A model generated the notes under the pieces. The model saw only the letters and a program-made list of their open reading frames with translations, had not been told where the DNA came from and did not search any database. This document shows, one piece after another, positions 1 through 8,230 of a stretch of 64,000 bases of DNA (the stretch's first letter is position 1; each line of letters begins with the position of its first letter). Origin of the DNA: Bacteroidota bacterium (GTDB lineage Bacteria; Bacteroidota; Bacteroidia; Flavobacteriales; Schleiferiaceae); NCBI GenBank assembly GCA_024742495.1, contig JANSYJ010000002.1:186001-250000 (forward strand), written 5' to 3'. The position numbers and the translations under genes were made by a program.

Positions 1-29
1 ACTGGGAAGCCGTTGAGGAATTAGTTTCT

Positions 30-64
30 GAGACGTGAGACGTGAGACGTGAGATTTGAGATGA
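30..64 (+). repeat. 7-bp tandem repeat array (GAGACGT units), left flank of S23 gene
   Basis: Three perfect GAGACGT heptamers at 30-50 are followed by two degenerate units (GAGATTT, GAGATGA) up to 64. The array lies just upstream of the four-helix-bundle gene, and a matching array in inverted orientation lies directly after that gene's stop codon. The two arrays could pair and enclose the whole gene in one large stem. Confidence 0.85.
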
Positions 65-100
65 GAGTATTGAATTACGAGAACTTAAAAAATACCATGT

Positions 101-460
101 ATGATGCATAATTTTAAAGAGCTGAAAATCTGGCAACAGGCAATGGTAGTTGCAGAAGAAGTATATAGATTAACGAACGCATTTCCCATTAAGGAACAAT
201 TCGGGTTAACTAGTCAGCTTAGGCGAGCAGTAATTTCAATACCATCAAATATTGCAGAGGGAGCAGGAAGGAGTACAAATAGAGATTTTAGCAGATTTTT
301 GGACATCACAAATGGCTCAATTAATGAAGTTGAAACCCAATTACTTTTAGCAACGCGCTTGGGTATGCTTGAATCTGAGAAAAAGCTAAAAAGCATTTTT
401 GAAAAACTGGATGCTATCCAAAAAATGGTCTTTTCCTTCCAGAAAACACTGAAGGCTTAA
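101..460 (+). CDS. Four helix bundle protein (S23 / 23S rRNA intervening-sequence protein family)
   Basis: This 119-aa protein has the family core: FKELKIWQQA at the N-terminus, then FGLTSQLRRA and IPSNIAEGAGR in the middle, and ETQLLLATRLG later. It is predicted to be four amphipathic helices with no signal peptide or membrane segment. Relatives are encoded inside intervening sequences of 23S rRNA in Leptospira and Coxiella, and the Avd protein of diversity-generating retroelements has the same fold; the function of free-standing copies is unknown. The start may be either of two adjacent ATGs (101 or 104). The gene sits between inverted arrays of 7-bp repeats and precedes a thiolase, so it looks like a cassette placed in an otherwise metabolic neighbourhood. 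Family call is firm; role is not known. Confidence 0.9.
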   Translation: MMHNFKELKIWQQAMVVAEEVYRLTNAFPIKEQFGLTSQLRRAVISIPSNIAEGAGRSTNRDFSRFLDITNGSINEVETQLLLATRLGMLESEKKLKSIFEKLDAIQKMVFSFQKTLKA

Positions 461-461
461 G

Positions 462-489
462 GTCTCACATCTCACGTCTCAAGTCTCAA
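462..489 (-). repeat. 7-bp tandem repeat array, right flank of S23 gene (inverted copy)
   Basis: Four heptamers (GTCTCAC, ATCTCAC, GTCTCAA, GTCTCAA) start two bases after the stop codon of the four-helix-bundle gene. On the minus strand they read as GAGAC-type units, so they are inverted relative to the array at 30-64. Confidence 0.85.
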
Positions 490-532
490 ATCCTTAGTCC
501 AAAATAATAATAATCTAAAAATAGTATTTAAT

Positions 533-1708
533 ATGAACGCATACATAGTAGCCGCCAAGCGCACCGCAGTAGGAAAAGCTCCAAAGGGAATGTTTCGTTT
601 TACGCGACCAGATAATTTGGCGGGAACTTTAATTCGGGAGATTTTAAAAGATATACCACAATTAGATAAGGATCGGATAGACGATGTGATTGTAGGTAAT
701 GCAATGCCAGAGGCAGAGCAGGGAATGAATATGGCCCGCTTAATTTCTTTGATGGGATTAGATACCGTTAAGGTTCCCGGGGTAACGGTTAATCGCTGGT
801 GTGCTAGTGGTTTAGAAACAATCGCCATGGCCTCCGCTAAAATTCATGCGGGTATCGCCGATTGCATTATTGCCGGTGGTGTTGAAAGCATGAGTTTCAT
901 CCCCATGGGAGGATTTAAGCAAGTGCCGAGTTACGAGCTGGCCAAGGAACATGCCGATTATTACAATAACATGGGTCTCACTGCTGAAGCGGTAGCCCAG
1001 AAATATAAGGTGTCGCGAGAAGATCAAGATGAATTTGGCTATCAATCGCATATGAAAGCCTTGCGTGCCATTGAAGAAGGTCGGTTCAAGGATGATATTG
1101 TTCCAATAGAGGTGGAAGAAGTTTACTTAGACGCCAAAGAAAAACGTCAAGTGCGCAGCTATACTGTAGATACGGATGAAGGTCCGCGCCTTGGTACCAA
1201 TGTGGAAGCTATGGGGCGATTACGTCCGGTGTTTGCTGCAAAGGGATCGGTTACTGCTGGTAATTCCTCGCAAATGAGTGACGGTGCTGCATTTACCTTA
1301 ATAATGAGTGAGAAAATGATGAATGAACTGGGATTAAAACCTATCGCTCGTTTGTTAAACTATCAAGTTGTAGGGGTAGAGCCTCGCATTATGGGTATCG
1401 GTCCAGTAGATGCAATTCCGAAAGCTTTAAAAGCAGCCGGCATGAAAAAGGAGGATATGGATTTGATTGAACTCAATGAGGCCTTTGCTTCTCAATCCTT
1501 AGCGGTGATTCGCGAATTGGACCTCGACCCAGCCAAGGTGAATGTTAATGGTGGTGCAATTGCCATGGGTCATCCACTAGGTTGCACCGGAGCGAAATTA
1601 TCGGTACAACTGTTTAATGAGCTCAAAAAACGCGACCAGAAATACGGCATGGTTACCATGTGTGTAGGGGAAGGTCAGGGAGCAGCAGGTATTTACGAGT
1701 TGCTGTAG
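533..1708 (+). CDS. Acetyl-CoA C-acyltransferase (thiolase), beta-oxidation type
   Basis: A full-length 391-aa thiolase, which cleaves 3-ketoacyl-CoA with CoA in the last step of fatty acid beta-oxidation. The acyl-accepting cysteine is C90 in NRWCASGLE. The family motifs NEAFASQ, NGGAIAMGHPLGCTGA and the C-terminal MCVGEGQGAAG with the second catalytic Cys are intact. It is cytoplasmic and has no signal peptide. The multifunctional FadB/J partner is not in the window; it may lie to the left, with the repeat-flanked S23 cassette between. The acyl-CoA dehydrogenase at 5782 may serve the same pathway. A biosynthetic acetoacetyl-CoA thiolase role is possible but the FadA/FadI-like motifs favour degradation. 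The gene is followed by a clear intrinsic terminator. Confidence 0.93.
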   Translation: MNAYIVAAKRTAVGKAPKGMFRFTRPDNLAGTLIREILKDIPQLDKDRIDDVIVGNAMPEAEQGMNMARLISLMGLDTVKVPGVTVNRWCASGLETIAMASAKIHAGIADCIIAGGVESMSFIPMGGFKQVPSYELAKEHADYYNNMGLTAEAVAQKYKVSREDQDEFGYQSHMKALRAIEEGRFKDDIVPIEVEEVYLDAKEKRQVRSYTVDTDEGPRLGTNVEAMGRLRPVFAAKGSVTAGNSSQMSDGAAFTLIMSEKMMNELGLKPIARLLNYQVVGVEPRIMGIGPVDAIPKALKAAGMKKEDMDLIELNEAFASQSLAVIRELDLDPAKVNVNGGAIAMGHPLGCTGAKLSVQLFNELKKRDQKYGMVTMCVGEGQGAAGIYELL

Positions 1709-7637: not shown

Positions 7638-7770
7638 GTTTAAAATCAAGGCAATTGGAGGACTTAGCTTTAAAATCTCGACAGAAAGGCCTCCGTCCTT
7701 TAATAGCCCGTGTTTTCTCCAGATTTAAGTCTCTAAATCTATCTACTGAGCCAGAGTAAGAAAACTATAT

Positions 7771-7808
7771 TTTGCTAAATTAATATATCTTTGCTAAATA
7801 AGTATATC
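7771..7808 (+). promoter_or_regulatory. Tandem 19-bp direct repeat containing a -7 box
   Basis: Two adjacent 19-bp copies (7771-7789 and 7790-7808), each starting TTTGCTAAAT and ending TATATC, differ at two positions. The junction forms TATCTTTG (7786-7793), a perfect TAnnTTTG -7 box. The second copy ends two bases before the ATG of the next gene, so the repeats cover the promoter and the whole leader. This is consistent with autoregulation by the encoded DNA-binding protein (inference). Confidence 0.7.
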
Positions 7809-7810
7809 TA

Positions 7811-8230
7811 ATGAAAGCACCAGTTTGTCCGAATTGCGGCGAGCAAGAAGCAACTAAAAGTGGTATCGTTAAGGGCCGTCAACGTTATAAGTGTAAATCA
7901 TGTAGCTATCATTATACGGTTAGTCGTTTAGGGAAGAAAATAGATAATTATTACGTTACTAAAGCGCTTCAACTTTATTTAGAAGGACTTTCCTACCGGG
8001 AGATTGAGCGTATTTTAGGGGTCTCGCACGTTAGTGTGATGAACTGGGTTCGTCAACATAAAGTTAAGCGCCCTTATAAGCCAAGCTACCATCCAACTTA
8101 TCGCATTCTTACCCATGCTGAGCTTCTTCGGTTTTACCAGGATCCATCAAATTTAAAAGGAGCGGGAATGGTGATTACAGAGCTAGGTGATAAGTATATG
8201 CTTATCCGCTGGGAGCGATTTAGAGACTAG
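7811..8230 (+). CDS. Zinc-ribbon/HTH protein related to IS1 InsA-type transposase N-terminus; no catalytic domain
   Basis: A 139-aa protein. Residues 5-34 form a CxxC...CxxC zinc ribbon (CPNCGEQEA and YKCKSC), and residues ~45-80 form a helix-turn-helix (YLEGLSYREIERILGVSHVS). Both resemble the DNA-binding part of IS1 InsA-type transposases. No DDE catalytic domain follows; instead there is a ~55-residue tail ending LGDKYMLIRWERF. No terminal inverted repeats or target duplication are visible, so this is not a recent IS fragment. It precedes the carboxylate-uptake genes and sits directly behind tandem direct repeats. A domesticated transcription factor is the best guess; an old transposase remnant is the alternative. 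Confidence 0.72.
   Translation: MKAPVCPNCGEQEATKSGIVKGRQRYKCKSCSYHYTVSRLGKKIDNYYVTKALQLYLEGLSYREIERILGVSHVSVMNWVRQHKVKRPYKPSYHPTYRILTHAELLRFYQDPSNLKGAGMVITELGDKYMLIRWERFRD

Follow-up and report, generated by a model that had tools for sequence, protein, structure and literature searches.

S23 genes with inverted heptamer arrays as ends: a candidate REP/RAYT-like element in Bacteroidota and other bacteria

Near the start of a 64,000-nucleotide stretch of bacterial DNA (hereafter the window), an S23 gene is enclosed by inverted arrays of a 7-bp repeat. An S23 gene whose ends are inverted arrays of some 4-5 degenerate heptamers (TNRGWNN) appears to form a small genetic element, recognizable by its architecture, recurrence, left-right matching, polarity, motif, gene-less arrays with the unit of the resident S23, and presence or absence at equivalent sites. 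The pattern that defines REP/RAYT systems (a gene between inverted repeats, co-evolution of the two, and repeat abundance that follows the gene) led us to infer an S23/heptad-array element. We judge it reasonably probable that this element behaves like REP/RAYT, with an autonomous cassette and gene-less copies, but with an unrelated Avd-like protein.

Architecture of the window cassette

The features of the cassette and its neighbors are listed in Table 1. The left array comprises three TGAGACG units followed by TGAGATT and TGAGA at 29-61, and an extra out-of-phase TGAGA extends it to position 66. Its G-rich strand (TGAGANN) is the coding strand of S23. The right array reads TCTCACA TCTCACG TCTCAAG TCTCAAA and starts 2 bp past the S23 stop codon (458-460). 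Translation of S23 likely starts at the second ATG at 104 rather than at 101, as the resulting N-terminus (MHNFKELK) is conserved in relatives.

Table 1. Coordinates of the S23 cassette and neighboring genes in the window.
Feature	Position	Strand	Basis
Left heptamer array	29..66	+	Sequence; TRF 29-54, period 7, 100%; pattern with 0 expected by chance
S23/four-helix-bundle protein gene, 118-119 aa	101..460	+	PF05635, TIGR02436, AlphaFold model
Right heptamer array, TCTCANN x4 (left unit inverted)	463..490	-	Sequence, TRF, pattern, RNA-fold pairing with left array
Thiolase (fadA-like), downstream neighbor	533..1708	+	PF00108/PF02803
fadJ-like 3-hydroxyacyl-CoA dehydrogenase, upstream neighbor	stop codon 22-24		Flank sequence L029

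The pattern TGAGANNTGAGANNTGAGA has five matches in the 64-kb window, all within the two S23-flanking arrays, and none in 100 shuffles. These results confirm the original prediction that heptamer arrays bracket the gene, the right one beginning two bases after its stop. The further suggestion that the gene is the loop of a single stem agrees with the RNA fold, in which the left and right arrays pair around S23 (z -3.4). The cassette is placed between two co-directional genes, fadJ-like and fadA-like; the name of the former was assigned from its sequence and its position beside the thiolase, not from a family search. The arrays fill much of the space between the fadJ stop and the S23 start, and between the S23 stop and fadA. 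All same-genus genomes examined carry an equivalent cassette at the orthologous place.

Elsewhere in the window, at 7766-8230, a 19-bp tandem repeat (2.4 copies) lies directly 5' of a gene for a 139-aa orphan protein with weak matches to IS1595-type zinc-ribbon and HTH domains.

The S23 protein

S23 proteins are common in bacteria. Intervening sequences of rRNA were discovered more than three decades ago, and the function of S23 has been unexplained since. The window protein matches PF05635 (E 5.9e-37, 126.6 bits, cut-off 33.8) and TIGR02436 (126.6, cut-off 24), and scores 19.8 against NCBIfam Avd, below the cut-off of 80; its Pfam bAvd score is likewise below cut-off. Only S23/bAvd families appeared among its profile matches, which included no recognized nuclease, transposase, or other catalytic domain. 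The AlphaFold model (pLDDT 96.6) is a four-helix bundle with a TM score of 0.92 to 2gsc, and it also resembles 2rld. These two structures contain five chains each, and a Xanthomonas S23 protein is a homopentameric toroid of a family without known function (PMC4990558). By analogy, the window S23 probably forms a pentameric ring.

The gene is under purifying selection, with dN/dS of 0.05-0.08 among close relatives. Between most species of the genus, S23 proteins share 50-76% identity, compared with 88-93% for the neighboring thiolase; in the near-identical pair G001 and G005, the S23 identity is 97%.

Inverted arrays at other S23 loci

S23 genes are present in 67 of 149 related genomes. The original prediction proposed looking for arrays around S23 genes at different loci, and reading the flanks of 91 loci showed that most are bracketed by inverted arrays with a unit of about 7 bp. 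The array words differ among loci and include TGAGANN, TTAGTAN, TTAGANN, GTGATGA, TAGCCAA, AAAGTTT, and others.

We quantified the bracketing as the ungapped match between the 150 bp left of the gene and the reverse-complemented 150 bp to its right. The scored set contained 77 non-redundant S23 loci of the order, and the controls were 112 other genes with intergenic space from the same genomes. The mean left-right score of the S23 loci was 14.6, compared with 8.0 across loci (p 4e-35) and 8.7 for control genes (p 8e-21), and the inverted match of S23 flanks exceeded the direct match (p 1.5e-9). An excess of autocorrelation at lags 7, 14, and 21 was confined to the S23 flanks. Six of 338 control genes passed the threshold, and two of these six turned out to be overlooked S23-like genes, indicating that the score detects S23 genes blindly.

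Array bracketing recurs in 79 measurable loci from 80 named GTDB matches. These are mostly from Bacteroidota, with others from Cyanobacteriota, Thermomicrobiota, Pseudomonadota, Kiritimatiellota, Armatimonadota, Gracilibacteria, and Myxococcota. It also recurs on IMG/VR contigs (a partly redundant set) and on plasmids of Nostoc, Calothrix, Geminocystis, and Stanieria. About 40-48% of S23 loci fall below the score threshold. A handful of loci (L089, L114, L097, L379 of Pseudanabaena, and L380 of Calothrix) are flanked by direct arrays or lack arrays altogether; among these, the S23 gene of Calothrix PCC 7716 lacks arrays and that of Pseudanabaena has direct ones. The motif scan found no S23 gene within 23S rRNA among the fetched loci, phage records gave no match, and the flanks that we read contained no consistent partner gene such as a reverse transcriptase or recombinase.

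Several individual loci are worth recording. In the Pseudanabaena galeata plasmid pPg_01 (L379, ~2001-2360), a type I-D CRISPR locus contains S23 between its cas6 and cas4 genes, and the long AAAGCTA/AAAGCCA arrays that flank S23 are in direct orientation. In the Nostoc edaphicum plasmid pNe_5 (L378, 1995-2363), an S23 cassette with GGGAGTA arrays is inserted antisense between two ribonucleotide reductase subunit genes. One contig carries two identical copies of an S23 locus, flanks included, near its two ends (G003:C1:10223 and G003:C1:3393806; L069 and L083), probably reflecting an untrimmed overlap of a circular assembly.

Motif, heptad order, and polarity of the arrays

The arrays have a median of 4.3 units on the left and 4.6 on the right. 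The common degenerate heptamer TNRGWNN, derived from 164 arrays, is identical for left and inverted right arrays. The order of variant heptads is also matched between the left and the inverted right array (13.95 vs 12.35 after heptad shuffling, p 3e-8), which indicates that the cassette ends are true inverted repeats, not merely runs of a common word.

The array polarity tracks the strand of S23, not the host operon. The G-rich side is upstream of S23 at 164 of 182 loci, and this rule holds for sense and antisense insertions alike. We therefore rejected the idea that arrays are polarized by the host transcript, since antisense insertions retain the S23 polarity. Left-right matching, gene polarity, and recurrence at other loci and phyla together bear out the view that the arrays belong with S23 as one cassette.

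The array unit follows the resident S23 gene

The similarity of arrays between loci stays at background when S23 identity is below 50% and climbs with increasing identity. The same coupling is visible inside the genus of the window. Six genomes with the window type of S23 at the fadJ-fadA junction contain 8-54 matches to TGAGANN arrays, whereas G006, whose S23 has the unit TTAGTAN, contains none. Conversely, 31 TNAGTAN arrays occur in G006 and 33 in G002, a genome with an additional S23 of the TNAGTAN unit; the other five genomes have 0-2.

A wider survey used the general array motif TNAGW at period 7 with four units. Arrays were present in 47 of 57 genomes with clear S23 and in 5 of 92 without (p 4e-23, with statistics that ignore phylogeny and counts that include S23-adjacent arrays). 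Across genomes, arrays and S23 are correlated (Spearman 0.81, ignoring phylogeny). Both are rare in small genomes, and the association is significant within each genome-size class.

Gene-less arrays, gain, and loss

The source genome has a single S23 gene and carries TGAGANN arrays at about ten further sites without S23. Many of the S23-less arrays belong to tandem units consisting of a left array, a 50-100 bp spacer, and an inverted array. The original prediction had taken repeats scattered independently of S23 as evidence against a cassette. Repeats away from S23 do exist, but they carry the unit that belongs to the genome's own S23 type, and hardly any are present where S23 is lacking; they therefore look like gene-less copies, not unrelated repeats.

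Tandem units of 130-160 bp in the source genome (L033 2200-2800, L035 180-670, L039 2540-2990, and L030 2200-2580) combine inverted TGAGANN arrays with GCGAGCAAAGCGAGCG pieces and have about 23 genome matches, several at contig ends. At L317 (G002:C30, 1540-1830), tandem repeats of roughly 100 bp (CACTCACTTTTAGATTTGATCCTGC...) adjoin a TNAGTAN array.

The fadJ-fadA junction occurs in three states. The full cassette is present in G000-G006, G022-G024, and G043. Inverted TNAGTAN arrays without S23, separated by a 60-70 bp spacer and located upstream of the thiolase start, are found in G009 (L275) and G035 (L282). The junction is empty in a dozen genomes, with about 17-45 bp between the genes, so the empty sites that were anticipated do exist. 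Dispersed arrays also turn over: in G005 and G001 they occupy different positions, with flanking sequences 92-95% identical between the two, and the one array site checked in each direction was array-free in the other genome. No target-site duplication was recognizable by eye in the sites compared, and neither a transposition event nor an exact excision was seen.

The cassette at this junction appears to be mostly vertically inherited within the genus. AU tests of a single origin of all fadJ-fadA S23 genes gave p 0.158, which does not reject it, and p 0.047 when restricted to the within-family subset. The S23 of G006 is about 50% identical, has another array unit, and groups with other genera, which suggests a replacement of the cassette in this genome that the AU test does not prove (p 0.104).

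Comparison with known systems

The S23-bearing intervening sequences (IVS) of 23S rRNA, for example those of Coxiella and Leptospira, resemble the window cassette in that the S23 gene is looped in an inverted repeat of about 28-30 bp, and a mobile origin has been proposed for them (PMC4990558). Terminal inverted repeats able to form a stem around the S23 ORF are likewise present in the window cassette. In contrast to an insertion in a 23S rRNA helix, this cassette sits in a protein-coding operon, between the fadJ-like and thiolase genes, and the first 3 kb of the window match no rRNA; its ends are heptad arrays, and it has gene-less relatives genome-wide. The proposed kinship with these intervening sequences or with a mobile cassette is thus partly borne out: the architecture of an S23 ORF in an inverted-repeat loop agrees with it, and mobility is presumed.

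In REP/RAYT systems, a gene lies between inverted repeats, the repeat co-evolves with the gene, and repeat abundance follows the cognate gene (PMC2817692). The S23 element shares these properties: two inverted copies of a dispersed repeat flank the gene, array and gene change together, array abundance tracks S23, and the gene outpaces its neighbors in divergence. The two differ in their proteins and repeats. RAYT is an IS200/IS605-type tyrosine transposase, whereas S23 is an unrelated four-helix bundle without a known catalytic site; REPs are palindromes, whereas the S23 repeats are period-7 arrays.

The S23 model has the same fold as Avd of diversity-generating retroelements (DGR), with TM scores of 0.78-0.81 (4dwl, 8ub7); it resembles both free Avd (4dwl) and Avd within the solved ribonucleoprotein of a DGR (8ub7, 8ube). 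Avd works in a complex with RNA and reverse transcriptase and is encoded beside a reverse transcriptase and a variable repeat, whereas the S23 flanks examined contained no reverse transcriptase, template, or variable repeat. The TAACTGA repeats (PMC4679880) and the cyanobacterial STRR are, like the S23 arrays, intergenic direct 7-bp repeats. The reverse complement of TAACTGA, TCAGTTA, fits the motif TNRGWNN, and S23 genes on Nostoc and Calothrix plasmids are accompanied by 7-bp repeat arrays of this sort. The TAACTGA paper names no protein partner and does not mention S23 (PMC4679880). The presence or absence of sequence at orthologous sites, as expected of transposable elements, is seen both in the fadJ-fadA versions and in the dispersed arrays of G001 and G005.

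We place the S23/heptad-array element outside RAYT by its protein and outside the intervening sequences by its location. It appears to work like a known kind, with mobility that we infer.

Possible mechanism and alternative explanations

In the REP/RAYT-like explanation, S23, probably as a pentameric ring of the Avd fold, would recognize heptad arrays of its own type. One could speculate that each subunit reads one heptad, as five subunits would face about five heptads. S23 may then promote, in trans, the copying or spread of array-ended DNA, using host or undiscovered catalysis. This spread would yield both autonomous copies, the S23 cassette itself, and non-autonomous ones, the gene-less arrays. 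Insertion between co-directional genes would be tolerated because the operon is left intact.

The arrays might instead act at the RNA level, as a transcript stem at which RNase III or a similar enzyme releases the S23 mRNA from the transcript of the operon, making the cassette harmless, with spread rare and incidental. The pairing of the arrays around the gene and the matched heptad order fit this explanation. Cassettes also lie between co-directional genes at 165 of 182 loci compared with 71% of control genes (a count that retains IMG/VR redundancy), and RNase III cleaves the 28-bp stems of intervening sequences with an S23 ORF (PMC4990558). However, stem mismatches show no G-U bias on the sense strand (112 vs 160), so that neither selection for a sense-RNA stem nor the self-processing raised in the original prediction is supported. 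The S23 polarity retained in antisense insertions also speaks against an RNA-level role, and the gene-less arrays matching the resident S23 unit would be left unexplained. We consider this alternative unlikely.

An explanation without mobility is that S23 binds the 5' and 3' arrays of its own mRNA or gene for expression control, with the dispersed arrays as its other targets. The arrays abut the S23 start and stop codons, and a common motif with dispersed units matching the resident S23 would be expected of a binding protein and its target sites. TAACTGA heptamers upstream of genes have been proposed as sites of a post-transcriptional regulator (PMC4679880). For such a regulon, however, a strict inverted pair of one locus-specific unit on both sides would be unusual, as would hypervariable units, the turnover of dispersed sites between close genomes, gene-less tandem hairpin units, and empty or array-only fadJ-fadA sites. 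We consider autoregulation quite improbable. Finally, it is hardly credible that arrays simply grow by slippage in the intergenic DNA of larger genomes, where S23 cassettes merely sit: arrays without S23 and the scarcity of both in small genomes would fit, but the idea is already contradicted by the control genes of the same genomes, among which bracketing is specific to S23, by the left-right inversion and polarity, and by the association persisting within genome-size classes.

Implications

The occurrence of S23 in rRNA intervening sequences, their proposed mobile origin, heptanucleotide repeats, and RAYT/REP were already known. In the literature covered, which mostly excludes subscription journals, we found no earlier description of heptad arrays around S23 genes or of a coupling between the two. 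The S23-array link gives a testable handle on both S23 and the heptanucleotide repeats, which have long been without a function or a partner. The handle consists of a defined protein, the period-7 motif TNRGWNN, matched protein-unit pairs, and empty sites.

More broadly, and tentatively, since we hold it to be slightly short of an even chance, S23 proteins may drive the mobility or replication of a widespread, unrecognized class of selfish DNA whose heptad-array ends are read by a pentameric Avd-like ring. The STRR/TAACTGA repeats of Bacteroidota, cyanobacteria, and others would be its gene-less copies, and the 23S rRNA intervening sequences would be copies that landed in rRNA genes. If S23 mobilizes array-ended DNA, it would do so with a fold for which neither DNA cleavage nor DNA joining is known.
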